40,262 nucleotides of DNA from assembly GCA_001899235.1 (NCBI GenBank), contig MKVR01000052.1, forward strand, positions 58,682 to 98,943. The letters run 5' to 3'. Origin of the DNA: Nitrosospira sp. 56-18 (GTDB lineage Bacteria > Pseudomonadota > Gammaproteobacteria > Burkholderiales > Nitrosomonadaceae). Every line of letters starts with the position of its first letter. Position 1 is the stretch's first letter. The notes beneath the pieces are model-generated. The model saw only the letters and a program-made list of their open reading frames with translations. It ran no database searches and was not told the DNA's origin. Both the position numbers and the translations under genes were made by a program. Positions 5,523 to 19,066 of the stretch are shown here, piece after piece.

Positions 5523-7325
5523 TCATTGCGACAGGATAAGGACGCTGTAAGGCCCGATCCCGATATTCCCGGAGCAAGGCATGGCGTCTCTCCCCCCCGG
5601 CCCGGCGACGGTGTCGTACCCCCGCCGGTTGCCGAAATCCGGGCTGTACCCGGCGTAGTCGCTATTGAAGCGGACCCACCACAGGCCTTCGCGCGGAAAC
5701 CCTATCGAATACGAATCGTAGCTCCTGTTGGCAAAGTTCGCGACAACCACCACGTCGTCCCCCGGCCCCCCCTGGTCCCAGCGGTGAAACGCGATCAGCT
5801 TGTCCGCATCATTGCGATGATGGAGATGCATCCCCTGGCCGCGCAGGCCGCGCGTGTTGTTGAACCAGTTGCGGCGCAGGCGGATCAGGTCGCGGTATAA
5901 ATCGACGATGCCCGCGTTGCGCACCGCCTTGCTCCAGTCGAGCTCCACGTCGTCGCGGAAATAGCGGTCTTCGAGAAATTCCTGTCCCTGGAAGATCATG
6001 GGAATGCCCGGTGCCGTAAAAACGAGCGCCGCGCCCAGGGTGGAGCGCTTCCGGGAAAAATAGCTGTCCGCATTGCCGGGCCAGATTTCTTCCGGCACCC
6101 GCGCGCTGCCGTTTGCGTCTTCGTCATGCGATTCGGTGTAGATCACGCGCCGGAATGCGTCGCCGTTATAGCGCAGCTCCAGCGCCCGCTGCATTGTGCC
6201 CATGTCGCGGCCGTCATCATATCCTGGCACGATGACCGCGCGCACCGGATGCACGAAGCCCGCATCCCATTGGGCGGTGAAACCGGCGCCACCCGCATCC
6301 GTATCCCGCGTCAGCCATTCGTTCTGCTGCATGTCCTCCGCGATGCTGAACTTCCAGGGCTGCCGCCCGCGGATTTCATTATTGATATACTGCATCAGGC
6401 TCCAGCCATCGGGAATGTCGTTGGGAGGATAATCGTTGCTCCCGAAGATATTCCGTATCCAGCCGGTTCCATCCCAGCGCAGGCCGTCCACGAACCGCTG
6501 TTCGGTCCAGCGCAACGCATTATCGCGAAGATATTGCCGCACCTCGTTACGGCCATAGTCCGGCCGGTTCATCCCCCAGGGAGTCTGGTTGCGGTTGTCA
6601 TTGTAGAAGTAGATCCCGCCCTGGTTGTTCTCATTCCAGCCGTCGAATTGCCAGAGGTCGCAATCCTCCGGCCCGATATGGTTGTAGACCACGTCGAAGA
6701 GCACCGCGATGCCGCGCTTGTGGGCCTCCCTCACCAGGTCGCGAAAACCGTTGGGGCCTCCGTAGGCATGCTCGATGGCGAACATGTAAGCCTGGTTGTA
6801 GCCCCACGAGAAATCGGTGGCGAATTCTCCCGCCGCCATGATTTCGATCACGTTGATGCCCAGGTCCCGCAGATAGTCGAGCCGGGTTATCAGCGTGGCG
6901 AAAGTGCCGTGCGGGTCCGGGAACGTCCTGTCGAAAAGAAACGAACCGACATGAAGCTCGTAAATCACCGCCTCGTTCCACGACGGCGTGCCGTAGCCCG
7001 GCACATCCCCGACCGTATCGGTCGCCGCGATGATGCTGTTCCCGTTGGACTGGGTCAACTCCCGCGCATACGGGTCGTTTTTCCACAATTCCGCCCCGCT
7101 GTCCCGGTTGACGACGACAAACTTATACTGCTGCCCGGGTTTTGCGGTGGTTTCATCCGTGGACCAATAGCCGTTGTCCTCGCTGGAAAGCGGCGATGCG
7201 GTCTTGCTCCACTGGTTGAACTCTCCCGCGACGCAGACCGCGCGCGCATTGGGCGCCCAGGCACGGAAAGTGACGCCGCCGTCGAACGCGGTAGCGCCCA
7301 TGTAGGGTCTTGTTGAGACGGGCAT
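5523..7325 (-). CDS. GH13 branching-enzyme-like protein with N-terminal CBM48
   Basis: A 600-residue alpha-amylase-superfamily protein that should act on alpha-1,4/1,6-glucans. Residues 8-100 form a CBM48-type sandwich (VTFRAWAPNARAVCVAGEFN, later GQQYKFVV). The barrel follows with DVVYNH (211-216), the nucleophile Asp in GLRWDGTGW (D285), the acid/base Glu in SIAEDM (E330) and the transition-state pair HD (400-401), then GIPMIFQGQEF. A C-terminal beta domain ends at residue 600. Order and motifs are closest to glycogen branching enzyme or maltooligosyltrehalose trehalohydrolase types, but the exact reaction cannot be fixed. AGGAGGGAG precedes the ATG. It is the last gene of the five-gene cluster. 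Confidence 0.9.
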   Translation of the reverse strand: MPVSTRPYMGATAFDGGVTFRAWAPNARAVCVAGEFNQWSKTASPLSSEDNGYWSTDETTAKPGQQYKFVVVNRDSGAELWKNDPYARELTQSNGNSIIAATDTVGDVPGYGTPSWNEAVIYELHVGSFLFDRTFPDPHGTFATLITRLDYLRDLGINVIEIMAAGEFATDFSWGYNQAYMFAIEHAYGGPNGFRDLVREAHKRGIAVLFDVVYNHIGPEDCDLWQFDGWNENNQGGIYFYNDNRNQTPWGMNRPDYGRNEVRQYLRDNALRWTEQRFVDGLRWDGTGWIRNIFGSNDYPPNDIPDGWSLMQYINNEIRGRQPWKFSIAEDMQQNEWLTRDTDAGGAGFTAQWDAGFVHPVRAVIVPGYDDGRDMGTMQRALELRYNGDAFRRVIYTESHDEDANGSARVPEEIWPGNADSYFSRKRSTLGAALVFTAPGIPMIFQGQEFLEDRYFRDDVELDWSKAVRNAGIVDLYRDLIRLRRNWFNNTRGLRGQGMHLHHRNDADKLIAFHRWDQGGPGDDVVVVANFANRSYDSYSIGFPREGLWWVRFNSDYAGYSPDFGNRRGYDTVAGPGGRDAMPCSGNIGIGPYSVLILSQ

Positions 7326-7344
7326 GATTTTCTCCCTCCTTTAT

Positions 7345-7372
7345 CCTAAATCCGGCAGTTGGACAGGGTGGA
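7345..7372. repeat. MITE end fragment (copy C)
   Basis: A 28-bp piece starting CCTAAATCCGGCAGTTGG matches the left ends of MITE copies A and B; the rest of the element is absent. It sits in the 61-bp gap between the cupin gene and the GH13 gene, 19 bp before the GH13 start and just upstream of its ribosome binding site. Confidence 0.75.
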
Positions 7373-7386
7373 TTCAGATTCAATGC

Positions 7387-8637
7387 TCAGTCGTAGCCGC
7401 CGAACATCGAAAGAAAAGCGTCCTCGTCGGTCGGGTTCATGAGCCCGTGCAGGTTGCCCCCGCGCAGCATCACCATGTCCCCGGAGCGCATGATCCTGAC
7501 TTCGAAGCAGCGCTCGCGGTCCGGCATCTTGCACCAGTCGCCCACCACCATCCACCCCCGCCCCCGCATCATCAGGAAAATTTCCGAATTATCGCGATGC
7601 CGGTGCAGGCCGATGCCGCAATCGCCTTTCATGATATGCAGATCGACATAGTTGACCGCCATGAAAGGCTCCACCGCCTGCGCGTGCTGCTTGCCGTTGA
7701 ACGCATCGAACATCCACGGTTCCAGCGCCCGGGCAAGTTCATTCATTCCCGCATACCGACCATAGTTGGAAAGAAGATTGCGGTATTCCAGAAAACCGAC
7801 GCCGCCATGTGGATTGGGGCTCGCGCCCACGCCGAGATAATTGTCCCAGCCGCGTCGGATCATGTTGAATGCATAGCGGTAATTGGCCCCGCCTTGCGAA
7901 TCCCACGCCTTGCCGTCCGCCGTGGCCCAGGCCACCTCGATGGCGAGCGGCAATACCGGATGCATGGCGTCGGTGGGCGCAACGCCGGTCACCAGCCGGC
8001 CTTCGAGGGCTGCACGCGAAAAATTGGCCACGTCGCCATGGACCAGATCCAGATTCACCGCCAGCTCGCCGCTATCCAGCGCCGCCTGCCCTCTCGCATC
8101 GAGCCGGGAACGAAGATCGTCCGCCGGATATCCCCACAATTCGATTTCATAGCGGTGCGACCGCGGGTTATAGGGAACAGGCAGCATGCCCGCCGTCGCG
8201 GCATCGCCGACCTTGAGCCACAGGCCGATCCGTTCGCCCAGCGGGTAGCCGCCCGCCGCCGCAAGCGCGGAATCCGGACCCCCGGCATAGGAAAGCCGCA
8301 GGAACGGGCCGCTCCAGTCCCCGGCGGCGGCGATGCCCCGTACCAGGAATGCATCCATGACGACGAAATCCCGCACATTCTGCTTCTGGAAATCAGTCTT
8401 GTTATCCTGCCGGGTGGGGTCCAGCACATCCGCATCCTGGCCCTGCGGCCCATAGAGTTCGAGCGAACGGATGGGAAAGAGATATTGAAGCTGATCCGCA
8501 TTGTAGTATTCCCGGCTTTCCGCCAATGCCACCGTTTCCACCAGGCCCATCAGCTTGACCAGCGAGTTTCCCGCGTCGTAATTCGGCGACGTGCCAGGCT
8601 CGACGCGAAAACAGGCGTCCCCATGCACAATTTCCAT
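7387..8637 (-). CDS. Cupin-domain protein, GMC cluster (second cupin)
   Basis: A 416-residue protein whose last ~74 residues form a cupin fold: LHRHRDNSEIF supplies the HxH and Glu metal ligands, and GNLHGLMN supplies the last His. The first ~340 residues are probably beta-rich and resemble nothing I can name. Cupins of this kind are metal enzymes (isomerases, dioxygenases) or sugar-binding proteins. The start at 8637 is preferred over the in-frame ATG at 8643 because GGGAG lies 7 nt before it but only 1 nt before the other. It follows the first cupin gene by 81 bp on the same strand, and the two are similar in length. Confidence 0.8.
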   Translation of the reverse strand: MEIVHGDACFRVEPGTSPNYDAGNSLVKLMGLVETVALAESREYYNADQLQYLFPIRSLELYGPQGQDADVLDPTRQDNKTDFQKQNVRDFVVMDAFLVRGIAAAGDWSGPFLRLSYAGGPDSALAAAGGYPLGERIGLWLKVGDAATAGMLPVPYNPRSHRYEIELWGYPADDLRSRLDARGQAALDSGELAVNLDLVHGDVANFSRAALEGRLVTGVAPTDAMHPVLPLAIEVAWATADGKAWDSQGGANYRYAFNMIRRGWDNYLGVGASPNPHGGVGFLEYRNLLSNYGRYAGMNELARALEPWMFDAFNGKQHAQAVEPFMAVNYVDLHIMKGDCGIGLHRHRDNSEIFLMMRGRGWMVVGDWCKMPDRERCFEVRIMRSGDMVMLRGGNLHGLMNPTDEDAFLSMFGGYD

Positions 8638-8718
8638 TGCCATTCTCCCTTATTTCGGTTCCTGAACCGGCACGGCGCAGTGCCGGATGGGACCACACCC
8701 TGCCAGGGCGTCTTCTCT

Positions 8719-9969
8719 TCAGGTACTGTGATACAGAAAAGCGACGAACTTCAGGTCGGCGCTCCCGGTATTGCGTATCCCGTGCATCCCGCCGCTCTTG
8801 GTGAAAATGACGCTGCCCGGCTTCACCGGCAGGCGGCGGTAGTCGTAATACCCCAGGCCCATGGTCATCCGGCTTTCGATGGGATACACGTCTTCTCCTT
8901 GCGGCGTCTTCGCGTCCGTCGCGGGGTCGTCCCCTACCCGGAGATAGGCGATTCCCTCCCCTTCGACGATGTAATACAGCTCTTCCGATCCGATGTGCTG
9001 GTGGTTGCCCTCGACATGCCCGGGCGGAATCGTGACATGGTGGAAGAAGATCATCGAGCCGCCAAACTCCCGCTGGAAAATCCAGCGCATGTCGATGATG
9101 TTATCGGGCTTCGCATCCGGATTGCCGGAACTGTCCATCATGGCGTTCAGGTAGCGCACCGGCACGATTTCCGGTACCTGCACGTACCAGCCGCGCTGGA
9201 AATCGAGCAGGTAGCTCTGGTCGAGGATCGTATTGCGCGGACTGCTCGGGTCGGAAGTCACCGGTTCCTGGTGGGACCGCAGGAATGCGTTGTCCCAGGC
9301 GGCATCCTCATCCGTGATCGGAAACCCGAACGGCAGGTCGCGGGTGTCCTCGCGGAAGGCGAGCTGCATGCTGTTGAGCGAGCCAAGCTGCGCCATCACG
9401 CCATCGAATTGCGGCACGCGCGTGATCGGGGCGTTGCGGCCCATCTGGTCCAGCACAGGAAAGGCATGGCTGGTCCCTTCCGGCGCCTCCAGCGTTTCCC
9501 AGATCTCCACCTGGAAAGTATGGGTCCAGATGTCGTATGCCAGCCTCACCCTGGCCTGCGGCGGGTTGGGAACCCCATCGGGAAGCGGCTGTATCCACAT
9601 GACCAGCCCGTCCTGGAGGAAACGCTGCTTCTCCCGGATCTGCTCCACCAGCCGGCTTGCCCCATATTCGATGCGGAGCACATTGCCGATGAGCTTGCCG
9701 TCGAGATACACTTGGCTCTTCATCGCGGTGATATCCAGGTAACTGCGTACCTCGCGCACATTGTAGCGGTAGCGCGGGCTGCGCGTCGCGTTCAGGTAGC
9801 GTTCATGGTAGATGCGGTCGGGAAAAAAGACGACCTTGAAGATTTCGTTATAGACATCCGTAAATGCCGACGAGAACGATCCGGCGTGCGGCGTCGCCTT
9901 TTCCGCGGTCGCGATCGCGCCCGGTCCCCCGGCCTGGCCTCCCAGGCTGCCTGGCATGCCGTTGCTCAT
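8719..9969 (-). CDS. Cupin-domain protein, GMC cluster (first cupin)
   Basis: A 416-residue protein with a C-terminal cupin from about residue 314: GNHQHIGSEELYYIVEGEG holds the two histidines and the glutamate, and SGGMHGIRN the final histidine. The N-terminal ~300 residues contain a probable second beta domain of unknown family; the first 35 residues are Gly/Ala-rich and likely disordered. Its ATG overlaps the GMC oxidoreductase stop by 4 bp (ATGA) with GGAGGG upstream, so translation is coupled. Co-translation with a sugar-type oxidoreductase suggests it handles the substrate or product, but that is inference. Confidence 0.85.
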   Translation of the reverse strand: MSNGMPGSLGGQAGGPGAIATAEKATPHAGSFSSAFTDVYNEIFKVVFFPDRIYHERYLNATRSPRYRYNVREVRSYLDITAMKSQVYLDGKLIGNVLRIEYGASRLVEQIREKQRFLQDGLVMWIQPLPDGVPNPPQARVRLAYDIWTHTFQVEIWETLEAPEGTSHAFPVLDQMGRNAPITRVPQFDGVMAQLGSLNSMQLAFREDTRDLPFGFPITDEDAAWDNAFLRSHQEPVTSDPSSPRNTILDQSYLLDFQRGWYVQVPEIVPVRYLNAMMDSSGNPDAKPDNIIDMRWIFQREFGGSMIFFHHVTIPPGHVEGNHQHIGSEELYYIVEGEGIAYLRVGDDPATDAKTPQGEDVYPIESRMTMGLGYYDYRRLPVKPGSVIFTKSGGMHGIRNTGSADLKFVAFLYHST

Positions 9970-11819
9970 AAGCGCCCTCCTATCTTGTCCGCCACGCGGA
10001 ACGAATTGGCTTCGATCGTGAGCGTGGGATTCGCCCCGCCGGAAGTCGGCATGAAGGCGCCGTCGGTAACGTACAAATTATCGAAGCCCCATACGCGGCA
10101 ATCCGGGTCGAGCACGGAATCGCGCGGGTCCGAGCCGAAGCGCGCGCCGCCCAGGATGTGATTGGCAATGCGCGCGATGCCGTTTTCGCCGTTGTACACC
10201 CCGCCGAATCCGCGGATCGGATAGTCATGCGTGGCGTTGCCGCCGGCACGCAGGATATTGGCGCATTCCCGGGCAAGCGTATCCATCAGGTATTTATCAT
10301 GGCTGTGCCAGTTCTTGATGATGTAGGCGGCGGGCCGGTTCCATTTGTCCCTTACCGTGGGGTGCAGTTCGATGCGGTTATCCTTCTGCGGCACCTGGTT
10401 CGCCATGAAGCTCACCGAGAGCCCGCGCCCCATATCGTTGTCGATGAAATCGACCATGCCCTGCCCGATGAGGCCGAAATCGTTCGCGAACCCATGCCAT
10501 AGCGTATCGAGGTCCGTCGCCGAATGCGTGCGCCCCAGCGATAGCGGCAGCGCCTCATCCGACGTATTGTTGTAGACCGCGCCGCCCGCCCAGAGATGGC
10601 TGGCTTTCAGGAAATCGTCGGTGGAACAGTAGTCTGTCGCCCAGTCGGCATCCAGCGAGCGCGTCTTGTCCGAACGTTCCGGCATGATCGAACTGGCGCC
10701 GCCGAAGGCATGGGTAAGAAAATATTTTCCCAGCAGGTCATTCTGCTGTTCCAGAATGCGGCCAAAGCCGGTGGGATCGAGCCCGGCGGAGAGCTTGAGC
10801 AACCGGATCGACTCGATGGCGGAGCAGGCCACCACCACGACTTTTCCGCGCGCGATCCGCTCGCTGCCCGAAGGGTCGATATAGCGCACCTCGCTCACGC
10901 GGGCGCCATCGCTCACGAGATGGGTCACGACGCAGTTGGTGCGGATGCTGAGGCCGGGTTCGTTCCGCAGCGGGGCAAGCAGCGCGTTCCAGGTGCTCGA
11001 CTTGAAACCGAGCGGGTCGCCGAAACGGTTGAGATAGCTGGTCTTGAGGTCGTCCGGCGCCGCGATCATCTTGCGCCCGCTGGGAGCATGGTCTTCGGTA
11101 ATGACGGCAAGCGGCGTGCGGTAAGGCAGCACATCCGCCCCGCCGGGTCCTTTTCCCCTGCCCACATACACCATGCCGTCATGGGCGTAGCGGCTGATCG
11201 CATTGGGCGCAAGGGGCGTCTGGTAGGTATCCTTCTCAGTGAAGGGCTTGAGCTGGTTGCCCTGCTCGCCGTTGATTCCCACCAGCTTTTCCGCCTTGCA
11301 ATAATATTTCTCCAGCTCGGCATAGGGAACCGGCCAGTCGCGGGCTTCGCGCTCGATATCCCCGGCCGGATCGGTGGCGGCCAGATCCGTCCGCCCGGCA
11401 TTGAAGGTCTGGAGCGCGAGGTCGCGCTGGGTGAAGCGCAGCGACACGCCGCCGTAGATCTGCGTCCCGCCGCCGATCACCTGCGCGGTATAGCCCTCGA
11501 TGGTGGCCCGGTCCCTGCCGTTCCCATCGCGGTAGATATGCGGCTCGTCGTTGATATCCGGTTCTACGTGGCTGGAGAAAAAAGCCGCCTGGTTGTTGTT
11601 CACCGCCGCGTGGGTAAGCCGCTTCTCCGCCCCATAGGCATAAAGCTCGTCGCGCTTGAAATCGCTCAACCCATTCGCGGCTTGCGCCTGGGAAAGGAAA
11701 AGCGGCCCTTTCTCCAGGACGAGCACCGATTTTTGCTGTCGGGCAAGCTCGTGCGCTATCGGCGCGCCGCCGGCGCCGCTGCCGATGATCACCACGTCGA
11801 AGTCGGTCTGCAAAGCCAT
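9966..11819 (-). CDS. GMC family FAD-dependent oxidoreductase
   Basis: A 617-residue flavoenzyme of the glucose-methanol-choline class, which oxidises alcohol groups of sugars or related molecules. The FAD dinucleotide motif GSGAGG is at 13-18 with the ribose-binding Glu at 36; GGGTQIYGGVSLRF at 116-129 matches the second FAD signature; the catalytic His is likely H554 in NHILGGARFG; and GGANPTLTI holds the second active-site residue near N597. The product resembles the large subunit of gluconate 2-dehydrogenase, and a subunit-3-like gene lies 3 bp upstream. There is no Tat or Sec signal and no cytochrome subunit nearby, so the electron acceptor is unknown and the enzyme may be cytoplasmic. 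Confidence 0.9.
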   Translation of the reverse strand: MALQTDFDVVIIGSGAGGAPIAHELARQQKSVLVLEKGPLFLSQAQAANGLSDFKRDELYAYGAEKRLTHAAVNNNQAAFFSSHVEPDINDEPHIYRDGNGRDRATIEGYTAQVIGGGTQIYGGVSLRFTQRDLALQTFNAGRTDLAATDPAGDIEREARDWPVPYAELEKYYCKAEKLVGINGEQGNQLKPFTEKDTYQTPLAPNAISRYAHDGMVYVGRGKGPGGADVLPYRTPLAVITEDHAPSGRKMIAAPDDLKTSYLNRFGDPLGFKSSTWNALLAPLRNEPGLSIRTNCVVTHLVSDGARVSEVRYIDPSGSERIARGKVVVVACSAIESIRLLKLSAGLDPTGFGRILEQQNDLLGKYFLTHAFGGASSIMPERSDKTRSLDADWATDYCSTDDFLKASHLWAGGAVYNNTSDEALPLSLGRTHSATDLDTLWHGFANDFGLIGQGMVDFIDNDMGRGLSVSFMANQVPQKDNRIELHPTVRDKWNRPAAYIIKNWHSHDKYLMDTLARECANILRAGGNATHDYPIRGFGGVYNGENGIARIANHILGGARFGSDPRDSVLDPDCRVWGFDNLYVTDGAFMPTSGGANPTLTIEANSFRVADKIGGRL

Positions 11820-11822
11820 GGA

Positions 11823-12938
11823 TTATCCGTGATAGTCGGCATTGGTTCCCAGGGGTTGCTCGATGGCGCGCTCCCAGTCGAAGAGCGTCTCCCCGCCCGC
11901 ATTCCTGAAGCGATCGGCAAGGTAGCGCCATCCGAGCGCGCTGGCATTGCCGCCGTATTTCGGGTGGGAAAAAGCGCCGGTGAACGCGTGGCGCCGCAGC
12001 ATCTGCAGGAAATAGGTGGGGTCGTTGTAGCGGGAAGTATCCCAGCCCGCCACCTGTCCGGATGCCATTTCCCCGTACAGGCCAATGAATATCTCCTTGG
12101 GAGCCTTCGCGGGCTCGATATCCGTTGCCCGCTGGCGAACGATATCCGCGATCAGCTCCAGGCAGATCTTGTAGTCGATGAGATGATGCCGCTCCTCGCG
12201 CGCCACGAGATTGTCCATGAAATTGACGATCCCGACCGACTGGTCGAGGCGGTAAGAAAACAGGTACTGCCGCTTTTTTTGCTGCGCGTCGAGCTGGTTG
12301 TAGAAAAACTGCAGAAAATCCTGGCCATCCTTGGTGCGAAAGGGCATGATGTGATCGACCAGCCGCTCGAGTATCGCCAGTTCCCAGCTCTCGAACGACA
12401 GCGGCTGGGTGCAGAGATGGGTGAAGAACCGGGACCATGTATGACCGTTGGGCTCGCGGATCTGCTGGGGGTTGACCGGATCGAGCATGGCCTTGCCATC
12501 CACCATGAACTTGTAGCGGTAGGCCTGGCCCTTGGGAACCCTGAGGGCTACCGCGAAGTAGCCGGTCGGTTCGCCGAGAAAGCGAACCGGCGAAAGCGCA
12601 ATGGGCTCGTACAGTTTCGCGAAGGTACCGATTACACCGACCTGGCCTGGCGTCCCGCCCGCCCCGGCGACACCGGATGAGCCGGGTTCGCCCGCGCGAT
12701 AGACAAACGTGACCCTGTTGAACGCGTAATTGCCCCCATCGTCCCCGCCATCCGCGCCATCCGTTTCGGCATGGCTGTCGATGATGGGAAAGCGCCATGC
12801 TTCGCAAATGCGGGCACGCGGATCGGAAGGATCGTACTGGCCGAAATTGTGGCGCGCATCCGTATTCCGGCGGGTCAGGAACCGCGTGCAGTGGTTCAGA
12901 ATGTATTGGTCGTCGTTCGCGATAACCTGCACCGCCAT
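11823..12938 (-). CDS. Gluconate 2-dehydrogenase subunit 3-like protein with glycogen-binding-like domain
   Basis: A 371-residue protein with two recognisable parts. Residues ~73-172 look like an AMPK/CBM48-type beta-sandwich (FAVALRVPKGQAYRYKFMVD, then a DPxNP turn and NGHTWS). Residues ~184-345 are helical and end in HAFTGAFSHPKYGGN (317-331), the hallmark of gluconate 2-dehydrogenase subunit 3, a small partner of GMC enzymes. A collagen-like Gly-rich linker (84-103) precedes the sandwich. Normal subunit 3 proteins are exported by Tat; this one has no signal. GGGGAGG supports the start at 12938. It is the first gene of the cluster and 3 bp from the GMC gene. The domain fusion is unusual. 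Confidence 0.8.
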   Translation of the reverse strand: MAVQVIANDDQYILNHCTRFLTRRNTDARHNFGQYDPSDPRARICEAWRFPIIDSHAETDGADGGDDGGNYAFNRVTFVYRAGEPGSSGVAGAGGTPGQVGVIGTFAKLYEPIALSPVRFLGEPTGYFAVALRVPKGQAYRYKFMVDGKAMLDPVNPQQIREPNGHTWSRFFTHLCTQPLSFESWELAILERLVDHIMPFRTKDGQDFLQFFYNQLDAQQKKRQYLFSYRLDQSVGIVNFMDNLVAREERHHLIDYKICLELIADIVRQRATDIEPAKAPKEIFIGLYGEMASGQVAGWDTSRYNDPTYFLQMLRRHAFTGAFSHPKYGGNASALGWRYLADRFRNAGGETLFDWERAIEQPLGTNADYHG

Positions 12939-13165: not shown

Positions 13166-15523
13166 ATGACAGAGAACGAAAGCAGCAACCCTTCCGATGC
13201 GCACCGGCAACCTGTTGCAGGCTACCGCCGCCGCGTCGTCATCAAATTCAAGGATCATATCCGGCTGCCGCGGGAGAATGCCGCCCGGGTGGCGGAAAGC
13301 CTCGGCGCCGGCCCATGGAGCGAACTGGCGGCGCAATTTCCGGGCATCACGCTGGCGCCGCTCTTCTCCGTGAAGCAGCCCGATCAGCTTCGCATTCTCG
13401 CCGAGCGCGCGCAGGCATTCGATGCCGCAGCACGCGCGCCCAACCTGAACGTTTATTTCGTCGTCGATCCTCCCAGGGGAACGGATGTCGAGGCGCTGGC
13501 CGCGACACTTTCCCGATGGGATTCGGTTGCCACCGCCTATGTCGAGCCGCCGCCGGTCGAGCCCCCGCTCGTCAATGCCGCGGATGACCCTCGCAGCGGC
13601 AACCAGGGCTATCTGGACCCCGCCCCCGATGGCATCGATGCCGAGTATGCCTGGAATTTTCCCGGAGGCGATGGCGCCGGGCAGGCGCTCGTGGATATGG
13701 AATGGGGGTGGACCTTCAATCATGAAGATCTCGCAGCGCACGGCATCACCCTTATTTCGGGCCTGAACCATTCCTACTTCTTTCACGGAAGCGGCGTTCT
13801 GGGAGAAATTGCGGCGGTGGACAACACTGTCGGCTGCGTTGGCATTACGCCTGCGCTGGCTTCTGTCCGCTGCGTTGGCCAGCACCAGCCGGGCGGCGGC
13901 TACAGTACCGCGCAGCCCATTCTCGACGCCATCGCCGTGATGAATTTCGGCGACGTGCTGCTGCTGGAAGCGCAAACCACCCTGTTCGGCTACAGCCTGG
14001 TTCCGGTGGAGATCGAGCCCGCGGTTTACGATGCGATCCGCCTGGCGACGTCGCTGGGCATCGTGGTGGTGGAGGCGGCGGGCAATGGCGGCGTCGATCT
14101 GGATACCGTTGTCAACCCCGCCGGCCAGCAGATATTCAACCGCGCCAGCCCGGATTTCCTGGATTCCGGCGCCATCATCGTGGGCGCGGCCAGCTCCACC
14201 GCGCCGCATGCGCGGCTGGGCTTCTCATGCCATGGCAGCCGCGTCGACTGCTACGGCTGGGGCGAAAACGTCGACACCCTTTCTTCCGACTCCACCAATA
14301 CCGCGACCAATCTCTATACGACCGGGTTCAACGGCACCTCCAGCGCCACGCCGATCGTCGCCGGGGCCGCGCTCGCCGTCCAGGGCCTGATGGAAGCCGC
14401 AACCGGCAACCGCCTTGCTCCCTGGCAGATGCGGATGATCCTGGGCGAGCCTTCGTACGGAACTTCATCCCAGGATCCGGCCACCGACCGCATAGGCGTC
14501 ATGCCCAACCTGCGCCTGATCATCGACAGCACCGTGCTCAACCTGTCCCCCGACATTTATCTCCGGGATTTCGTCGGCGATAACGGCGATCCGCATTTCG
14601 GCTCCATCTCCTCAAGCCCGGATATCATCCTGCGGCCGGCCGCCGTGCCTGACCCCCAGGGCGCTTTCGGCGCCGGCAGCGGCACCGAAAACGACATGGC
14701 CCTCGGTTACGAGGCGGAAGCGGGACAGGATAACTTCATCTACGTGCGGGTGCTCAACCGGGGCGGCTCGTCGGCTGCCAACGTGCTCGCCACCCTATAC
14801 TGGGCGCCTCCCTCGACCCTGATCACACCCGATCTCTGGACCCTGGCAGGTTCGATCAATCTGCCCAGCGTGCCGAACGGCAACCTGCTGACCGTCTCGG
14901 ACAGGATAACCTGGGGAGCCGCGGCCATACCGGCGCCAGGGCATTATTGCTTCATCAGCATACTCAACACCCCGCGTGATCCCGGCCCCTCTCCAGGCGA
15001 CCTGATGGATTGGAACAACTTCATCACCTACATCCGCAACAACAATAATGTCACCTGGCGCAATTTCAACGTGGTCGATAACATGCCGCCGCCGGATGCC
15101 GAGCCGATGGGCTACGTTGCGCTGCCTTTCATGGCGGCGGGCGCGCCCGACAGGGCGCGGCGCATGCGCCTGGAAATCGTGTCCCGCCTCCCGGCGGGTT
15201 CCGGGATCGTGCTCGAACTGACCCCCGAATTCGCGGAACTCCTGCGGGCGCACCCCCGCCCCATGCCACTGGAATTCAAGACCGGGAACCATGGATGCCG
15301 GGTGGTCCACATACCGGTCAATTACTGCGGCTCGGTGCTATTTCCCGAGGTGGTGTTTCCGGCGAAGGCGCGCATACCGCTGCGATTGCTGGCAAGAATA
15401 CCCGAAGCCATGCGCCACCACGAATTCGAGCTTTATGCGCGCCAGCTCTACGAGGATGAGGAAGTCGGACGGGTTACCTGGCGCCTGGCGCCGAACAGGA
15501 AATCCGATAAAAAGAATCGCTGA
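13166..15523 (+). CDS. S8 family (subtilisin-like) serine peptidase with C-terminal beta domain
   Basis: A 785-residue protein. The catalytic triad is readable: Asp177 in ALVDMEWGW, His207 in FFHGSGVLGEIAA, Ser392 in GTSSATPIVAG, with the oxyanion Asn307 in AAGNGG. The catalytic domain spans ~145-430. A C-terminal region of ~350 residues contains a CARDB-like beta segment (DNFIYVRVLNRGGSSAANV) and a more variable end. The first 130 residues are neither a signal peptide nor a typical inhibitor propeptide, so an intracellular role or non-classical export is possible. It is divergent from the GMC cluster, sharing a ~225-bp promoter region. The substrate is unknown. Confidence 0.9.
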   Translation: MTENESSNPSDAHRQPVAGYRRRVVIKFKDHIRLPRENAARVAESLGAGPWSELAAQFPGITLAPLFSVKQPDQLRILAERAQAFDAAARAPNLNVYFVVDPPRGTDVEALAATLSRWDSVATAYVEPPPVEPPLVNAADDPRSGNQGYLDPAPDGIDAEYAWNFPGGDGAGQALVDMEWGWTFNHEDLAAHGITLISGLNHSYFFHGSGVLGEIAAVDNTVGCVGITPALASVRCVGQHQPGGGYSTAQPILDAIAVMNFGDVLLLEAQTTLFGYSLVPVEIEPAVYDAIRLATSLGIVVVEAAGNGGVDLDTVVNPAGQQIFNRASPDFLDSGAIIVGAASSTAPHARLGFSCHGSRVDCYGWGENVDTLSSDSTNTATNLYTTGFNGTSSATPIVAGAALAVQGLMEAATGNRLAPWQMRMILGEPSYGTSSQDPATDRIGVMPNLRLIIDSTVLNLSPDIYLRDFVGDNGDPHFGSISSSPDIILRPAAVPDPQGAFGAGSGTENDMALGYEAEAGQDNFIYVRVLNRGGSSAANVLATLYWAPPSTLITPDLWTLAGSINLPSVPNGNLLTVSDRITWGAAAIPAPGHYCFISILNTPRDPGPSPGDLMDWNNFITYIRNNNNVTWRNFNVVDNMPPPDAEPMGYVALPFMAAGAPDRARRMRLEIVSRLPAGSGIVLELTPEFAELLRAHPRPMPLEFKTGNHGCRVVHIPVNYCGSVLFPEVVFPAKARIPLRLLARIPEAMRHHEFELYARQLYEDEEVGRVTWRLAPNRKSDKKNR

Positions 15524-18112: not shown

Positions 18113-19066
18113 ATGAACCCAAAACAATTTAAGCATTTAACAATAGGGACGCTTTCCGCAGCACTGGCTATGCCGCTGGTAGCCCAGGCGGATCTTTTCA
18201 CGTTTGATCCCACCGGGGGCGGCGGGGGAACAACCAACGTCGCGCTTATCGATCAGGCTCCCGGCAGCGCCCTGGCACAGGGCGGCGTAACGGCCATCAA
18301 TAATTTCCTGGCCGGTTCGGGCAGCACCAACTTCACCCTGCACTACCAGGCGAACCTTTCCTCCATGCAGTTCGCGGATACCTCGATTGCATTTGCCAAC
18401 GGATCCGGCGGCAACTACTTCACCTACGTGGCGGGTTTCGGCGAAACGGTCGTGGGCGCGAATCCTTATCCTGGCACAGCCACCTTTGCATTTGATGCAA
18501 GCAATCCGGTCAATTTCTTCAACATGTATGCGTCCAACGCAATCGGGAACAATCTGACCGGCGTTGGCTTCATGAATGGCTCGCCGATTTTGTCAGCGCA
18601 TATCGTCGGCATACCGACGAGCAATTTCCAGGTTACCGACACTACCGGAACCACTCTGGATCATTCTCCCAATGGAGACCAGTGGGGAGGACAGCAAACC
18701 GTTACCGGCGGCGGCGTATCGGATATCACGCTGGTGATCGACTCGGTCAACTCGGGATACTTTCCTTCGCTGCAACCGGGAAGCGCGATCACGATCTCGT
18801 TTTTCAACAGCTCCCAGGTCGACCCATTCAGGCAAGTGGATCCTTCGCAATGCGTTAATACCTTGGGAAGCGATTGCAGCGCAGGCGGAGGCATCAACAC
18901 GCTGGGTACGCTTGGTGCAGTGAATGGCACAAGCGGTCCCGACTTCATCATGCAGGCTGATGGAAATCAATCTTTCACAGTGCCGGAACCCGCATCGCTG
19001 GCGCTGATCGGCCTGGGACTTTCCTTCATGGGCTTCTTCGGCAAATCCCGCAAACGCACGGGGTAA
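18113..19066 (+). CDS. PEP-CTERM sorting-domain protein
   Basis: A 317-residue exported protein. A Sec signal peptide ends at AQA-D near residue 27, and the C-terminal 28 residues are a complete PEP-CTERM tail: VPEP (290-293), a hydrophobic span and a basic end (KSRKR). Exosortase is expected to cut or anchor such proteins during exopolysaccharide-linked surface display. The mature part is a Gly/Ser/Asn-rich beta-type domain without known catalytic motifs; one DPSQCVNTLGSDC pair could form a disulfide. AGGAAGAGG precedes the start. A sigma-54 promoter lies upstream and a strong terminator downstream, so it is monocistronic. Confidence 0.92.
   Translation: MNPKQFKHLTIGTLSAALAMPLVAQADLFTFDPTGGGGGTTNVALIDQAPGSALAQGGVTAINNFLAGSGSTNFTLHYQANLSSMQFADTSIAFANGSGGNYFTYVAGFGETVVGANPYPGTATFAFDASNPVNFFNMYASNAIGNNLTGVGFMNGSPILSAHIVGIPTSNFQVTDTTGTTLDHSPNGDQWGGQQTVTGGGVSDITLVIDSVNSGYFPSLQPGSAITISFFNSSQVDPFRQVDPSQCVNTLGSDCSAGGGINTLGTLGAVNGTSGPDFIMQADGNQSFTVPEPASLALIGLGLSFMGFFGKSRKRTG

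Follow-up and report, generated by a model that had tools for sequence, protein, structure and literature searches.

A conserved gene cluster of nitrifiers, cyanobacteria and a few other bacteria that probably encodes an undescribed sugar-oxidizing enzyme complex working inside the cell

Within the window, the whole stretch of 40,262 nucleotides from a Nitrosospira-like genome that was analysed here, we uncovered a cluster that probably specifies an undescribed sugar-oxidizing enzyme complex working inside the cell. The parts of this cluster belong to known families, and our literature search found no paper naming the subunit 3, GMC and cupin parts together, with most subscription journals outside its coverage. 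The cluster is real and conserved and is probably mobile. In our estimate, the chances are evenly balanced that its first four genes (g1 to g4) form one functional unit, consisting of a sugar oxidoreductase that uses FAD in the cytoplasm, a small subunit of its own and a pair of metal cupins. We read this unit as a relative of the glucose and fructose dehydrogenase complexes that stays in the cytoplasm, is no longer coupled to export or to cytochromes and acts on a sugar derived from alpha-glucan.

Consistent with the preliminary description of this DNA, the five genes g1 to g5 follow one another head to tail along the minus strand from 12938 to 5523, with all five frames open (Table 1). The spacings it gave stood for g1/g2 (gap of 3 bp), g2/g3 (overlap of 4 bp) and g4/g5 (61 bp), whilst the 81 bp given for g3/g4 applies only if g4 starts at its second methionine (8637), the start used by most aligned homologues, and is otherwise 75 bp. 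The host genome is 3.29 Mb in size and the nearest named match of g1, at 79% identity, is in a Nitrosospira MAG. A recent foreign origin was not indicated by base composition, as the GC content of three 2-kb segments from 5523 on (0.61-0.63) was equalled by 14, 11 and 7 of 122 background segments of the same genome and is no clear outlier. Directly upstream of g1 and divergent from it is a gene for an S8 (subtilase) peptidase (13169-15523, plus strand), which we place outside the unit because a comparison at E 1e-10 did not match it in the stretches available for the other 21 loci, among them approximately 1.7 kb of sequence preceding g1 of the Nitrosospira MAG. The window also encodes a protein with a PEP-CTERM sorting signal (18113-19066, plus strand).

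Table 1. Genes of the cluster, with positions in the window and the evidence for each assignment
Gene	Position	Strand	Product	Basis
g1	11823..12938	-	371 aa; AMPK/CBM48-type sandwich and Gluconate_2-dehydrogenase subunit-3-like domain	Pfam, model, fold matches
g2	9966..11819	-	GMC flavoprotein, 617 aa	Pfam, PDB profile matches, residue table
g3	8719..9969	-	Cupin A, C-terminal metal-type cupin	Pfam Cupin_2, residue table
g4	7387..8643 (or 8637)	-	Cupin B, C-terminal metal-type cupin	Pfam, residue table
g5	5523..7325	-	CBM48-GH13-alpha-amylase_C protein, GlgB/TreZ group	Pfam, residue table

Pfam recognized both GMC_oxred_N and GMC_oxred_C in g2, and its best PDB profile matches were to FAD-glucose dehydrogenase (E 2.4e-39) and fructose dehydrogenase (E 1.8e-31). 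Matches to the pyranose oxidase group of GMC enzymes (9fl2, 8qve) were weaker (E 1.6e-17 and 9.1e-14), placing that group at a greater distance from g2 than glucose dehydrogenase. Pyranose oxidases resemble the proposed enzyme by analogy in oxidizing sugars inside the cell, and are not known to have a subunit-3 partner. Residues His554 and Asn597 of g2, kept in all 21 copies with this segment aligned, correspond to the His476/Asn519 pair of the B. cepacia glucose dehydrogenase (PMC6719666). The earlier reading of g2 as a sugar-type GMC enzyme is thus supported. The 3Fe-4S cluster cysteines of the B. cepacia enzyme (Cys212, 218 and 222; PMC6719666) are missing as a set from g2, where the region aligns to KTSYVNRF-GD in the profile alignment; of the three places, that of Cys222 alone (position 268 in the window's g2) holds a Cys, in 13 of 21 copies but not in the window's own. 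Because the cysteine set is absent, electrons would have no exit via a 3Fe-4S cluster and cytochrome.

The putative partner of this flavoenzyme, g1, combines a sandwich (about residues 73-172) with a helical subunit-3-like domain (187-339). In the window's copy, Gluconate_2-dh3 was matched at E 8e-6 (26.7 bits, cut-off 23.4) and AMPK1_CBM at E 3.4e-5 (24.4 bits, just below the cut-off of 26.8). Of the 11 aligned g1 proteins scanned, all matched Gluconate_2-dh3 and nine matched AMPK1_CBM at E 0.01 (best 3.9e-9), and g1 is the sole Gluconate_2-dh3 match at E 0.01 in the host genome. The preliminary description had named the folding of residues 73-172 as a test of its proposal, and when this was run the segment modelled as an AMPK/CBM48 sandwich, with low confidence in the loop at 84-95; mean pLDDT was 61 for the whole model and 74-88 in blocks within 101-170. 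Comparison with CBM48/AMPK domains (PF16561, PF02922) gave a best Foldseek E of 3e-5 and target-normalised TM values of up to 0.85 for isolated domains. The top structural matches by Z were the CBM48 domains of feruloyl esterases (12.3-12.6), with the enterobactin esterase Fes at 10.9 and AMPK-beta at up to 10.8; Fes is not known to act on glucan. Pfam, model and fold matches together uphold the unusual placement of such a sandwich in front of a subunit-3-like domain, the helical part resting on Pfam, with no fold match, because the structural match list (VIA) spans residues 41-178 only.

Glucan binding by this sandwich is a different matter. In AMPK, W100 and W133 form a two-tryptophan platform that holds glycogen (PMC2642990). 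By a HMMER alignment that is itself a weak match (E 0.11-0.14), Leu occupies the place of Trp100 in all 22 g1 copies, a Trp stands at the Trp133 position in 2 of 22, and the Lys126 equivalent is kept in 21 of 22. g1 has in common with the glycogen-binding CBM48 and AMPK-beta domains the fold and the Lys126 equivalent, but the tryptophan platform is without counterpart among the 22 copies of the family. Because this pair is missing, glucan binding by g1 appears doubtful, and the earlier claim that it binds a polyglucan was not sustained.

Export of the enzyme was not indicated. In a simple hydropathy test, used in place of a dedicated predictor, no signal peptide was seen at the N-terminus of g1 (best 19-residue mean 0.07) or g2 (1.04, at the FAD-binding strand). 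Inspection of the N-termini of 11 g1 proteins, with hydropathy for the window's copy, likewise revealed no Tat signal; an RR pair at g1 residues 23-24, which occurs in 2 of the 11, has no hydrophobic stretch behind it. The earlier statement that no cytochrome and no transporter were seen was checked against the window ORFs given to Pfam; cytochrome genes were detected neither among these nor among the flank proteins given to Pfam, a subset of ORFs. Since no signal peptide was seen on g1 or g2, the g1-g4 unit is most likely cytoplasmic, as first proposed and now borne out as probable, and, judged from its sequences, is most likely not feeding a cytochrome by the known route.

Functionally, the glucose/fructose dehydrogenase complex offers the closest model for the cluster, which differs from it in two of the defining features that were tested. 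Glucose and fructose dehydrogenases work with a small subunit. The B. cepacia direct-electron-transfer FAD glucose dehydrogenase (6a2u, 8grj, 8hdd) and fructose dehydrogenase (7w2j) share with g2 a GMC catalytic subunit and the His/Asn pair, and the cluster encodes a Gluconate_2-dh3-type protein beside its GMC gene. Unlike these dehydrogenases, the cluster shows no Tat signal and no 3Fe-4S cysteine set, carries a CBM48-like sandwich on its small subunit and has two cupins instead, with no cytochrome gene seen among the scanned neighbours.

Both cupins have long N-terminal parts without a Pfam family. Metal-dependent cupins are marked by three His and one Glu in two cupin motifs, and the corresponding residues are H323, H325, E329/E330 and H396 in g3, a Pfam Cupin_2 protein, and H347, H349, E354 and H399 in g4, in which Cupin_2 scored below the cut-off (24.0 vs 27.2 bits). 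These residues are kept in 19 of 19 g3 and 21 of 21 g4 copies aligned there. The two proteins are homologous (hhalign probability 87%, E 4e-6, 265 aligned columns); the g4 profile found no PDB match below E 0.19 and its AlphaFold model has a mean pLDDT of 43. The reaction of the cupins cannot be read from the metal motif. Two related cyanobacteria carry a short g3 comprising the N-terminal part only (L042 9858-10349 and L043 6425-7030), suggesting that the cupin half of g3 is not always needed.

Beyond the window, the order and strand of g1-g2-g3-g4 are kept in 21 of 22 loci compared, spanning Nitrosospira, Nitrosomonas, cyanobacteria, Brevibacillus, a Mycobacterium MAG and a Microvirga plasmid. 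The twenty-second is the Nitrosospira MAG, in which one contig ends inside g3 and another carries the g3 end, g4 and g5. Conservation of these neighbours, which had been offered as a further test, was thus found across unrelated genomes for g1-g4, whilst g5 did not prove to be a fixed member (see below). The 21 ordered loci include the two short g3 genes, one GMC gene with an internal loss and one g3 with a stop; these last two are decaying copies (L065 8313-9194, a large internal loss; L068 8678-9805, one stop). Left out of the count were L044 (genome G185), where roughly the final 100 residues of g4 are all that remains, and L003, a weak match (E 4e-4) to g1 residues 85-153; L004 and L045 were taken as one contig, and L005/L067 and L009/L068, being the same places, were each counted once.

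The unit is rare. Scanning the genome collection with g1 returned nine loci, and 3 of 61 nearby genomes matched (the host genome itself, the Nitrosospira MAG and one weak partial match). Searches of cyanobacteria and other groups with the g4 alignment at E 1e-20 matched 6 of 388 genomes of the cyanobacterial class and 15 of 211 of the Nostoc family, counts that include seed genomes and the G185 remnant and come from overlapping samples. The same alignment recovered no more than the seed or own genome from each of four further samples, namely 394 genomes of the class of the Mycobacterium MAG, 348 of the Brevibacillus class, 369 of the window's class and 200 of its phylum. As the samples were drawn from larger groups, they bound the frequency only roughly. 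Among 72,556 plasmid records, g4 had a single match, the Microvirga plasmid first reached by the g2 plasmid search. There the cluster lies beside a DUF6538 gene with a weak phage-integrase match (L013 12038-13294, minus strand).

A GMC tree of 21 sequences, midpoint-rooted for drawing only, placed Nitrosomonas in a group of 13 with cyanobacteria (support 96/93) that excluded Nitrosospira, the two Nitrosospira sequences pairing together (100/100). The inner branch joining Nitrosomonas to the Nostoc set was weaker (81/77), and the Microvirga branch was long and its placement unsure. Because Nitrosomonas groups with cyanobacteria and apart from Nitrosospira, the tree suggests separate gains within one bacterial family, and the g1-g4 unit has probably spread horizontally.

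The fifth gene, g5, gives the cluster a genomic link to alpha-glucan genes. Pfam detected CBM_48, confirming the CBM48 domain described earlier, together with Alpha-amylase and Alpha-amylase_C, and the GH13 catalytic triad (D285/E330/D401) is kept in 9 of 9 copies aligned there. The protein shares this architecture and triad with the GlgB branching enzyme and TreZ trehalohydrolase, but its NCBIfam scores are far below the equivalog cut-offs (251 vs 577 and 221 vs 539 bits, respectively). The host genome holds eight GH13 matches. Within about 3 kb of the core, an intact GH13 gene was found at 10 of 22 loci (the window, the Nitrosospira MAG, Nostoc CHAB 5836, N. desertorum, G1734, G1664 with its start cut by the contig end, G1728, G260, Nitrosomonas Nm34 and Microvirga) and relics at two (N. 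indistinguendum, 94 residues; Nostoc NMS8, a weak match of 28 residues, E 5.5e-4). None was seen at nine loci that had at least about 2.4 kb of flanking sequence on both sides (Sphaerospermopsis, Brevibacillus, G274, G1698, G1705, G1578, G1615, G102 and G141), and the Mycobacterium contig was too short for a call. GH13 is therefore accessory and stands outside the invariant core.

These adjoining GH13 genes span four lineages (Nitrosospira, Nitrosomonas, Microvirga and cyanobacteria) and comprise two types, 31-35% identical, upstream or downstream of the core; in the window, L014, L041 and L013, g4 is immediately followed by GH13. By density, only about 0.006-0.015 GH13 genes per genome would be expected within 3 kb, an estimate from counts taken by eye in four of nine genomes. 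A gene for a glycogen-debranching enzyme lies approximately 1.9 kb downstream on the other strand in L042, with a 90% identical copy in L043, both loci without GH13, and a 42% match to part of it occurs further off in L062. Upstream of the core and on the same strand, five of the 22 loci, all Nostoc-type, carry a GT4 gene, the best NCBIfam match of which was a glycogen synthase model (139.5 bits, cut-off 302.4; one protein scanned); being close Nostoc relatives, these loci are not independent. The genomic link to alpha-glucan genes first proposed from the window is supported by genome context, not by the binding residues of g1. As no GH13 was seen at 9 of 22 loci, alpha-glucan need not be the substrate. 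Genes of other kinds also occur near the core, including a cyanophycinase-like S51 peptidase, scoring below the cyanophycinase cut-off, after g4 in Nostoc loci (L005 13716-14759, L008, L060, L062 and L068) and, close to the cluster of Nitrosomonas Nm34, a tyrosinase that weakly matches a Tat signal (L010 14817-16295, minus strand).

Taken as a cytoplasmic sugar oxidoreductase, the unit could work as follows. In glucose dehydrogenase, the subunit-3-like domain packs on the GMC subunit, and by analogy we infer a g1-g2 complex in which g1 would partner g2 through this domain, its sandwich serving for docking rather than as a standard glycogen site. With its His/Asn pair and FAD, g2 would oxidize a sugar hydroxyl and pass the electrons to O2 or a soluble acceptor. 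The homologous cupins, with their metal sites, may then act on the oxidized product, for example by isomerizing or cleaving a keto-sugar. Genomic association would point to a substrate from an alpha-glucan made or reshaped by the GH13 enzyme and, in Nostoc, also by the glycogen-synthase-like GT4.

Other readings account for parts of these data. The core may make a small sugar-bearing specialized metabolite or osmolyte, with the GMC enzyme oxidizing the sugar, the cupins tailoring it, GH13 and GT4 adding glucose, and alpha-glucan as glucose donor only. The rare and patchy distribution would fit such accessory chemistry, as would the loss of the glucan-binding Trp in g1 and the AraC and Crp regulators found beside the core in L042 and again in L043, but no PKS, NRPS or terpene enzyme occurred among the flank proteins given to Pfam (four sets of 10) and CBM48-GH13 enzymes of two types stand beside the core in several lineages, so that we consider this somewhat unlikely. 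It is unlikely, too, that the four genes are independent of glucan altogether, GH13 and GT4 being chance or regional neighbours and the sandwich a general protein-interaction domain; the nine cores without a visible GH13 and the two with relics, the invariant Leu at the W100 position and the prominence of feruloyl esterase domains and Fes alongside AMPK-beta among the Z matches agree with this, yet GH13 adjoins the core in four lineages, far above the density estimate.

A conventional periplasmic glucose, gluconate or fructose dehydrogenase complex, its signal and cytochrome overlooked, would explain why a subunit-3 family protein is paired with a GMC protein; it is nevertheless highly improbable against the lack of a hydrophobic N-terminus, an RR pair without a hydrophobic stretch, the absent 3Fe-4S cysteine set and the lack of a cytochrome among the scanned neighbours. 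Decidedly unlikely, in our view, is a cytoplasmic system for building or recycling oxidized alpha-glucan, with branched glucan produced by GT4 and GH13, carbonyl or acid groups added to it by the GMC enzyme with g1, and the product finished by the twin cupins. If true, this would mean a previously undescribed bacterial polymer for storage or protection, one handed on between cyanobacteria and ammonia oxidizers.

GMC enzymes that have subunit-3 partners are familiar as exported dehydrogenases of the electron-transfer type and find use in glucose sensors. Read as an intracellular relative of these enzymes, the cluster has apparently kept the GMC and subunit-3 pair without export or the iron-sulphur relay and gained a CBM48-like domain, and the pair travels with two uncharacterized cupins. 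Ultimately, this offers a delimited group of genes with which intracellular oxidation of sugars can be tested in a nitrifier, cyanobacteria and a handful of other bacteria.
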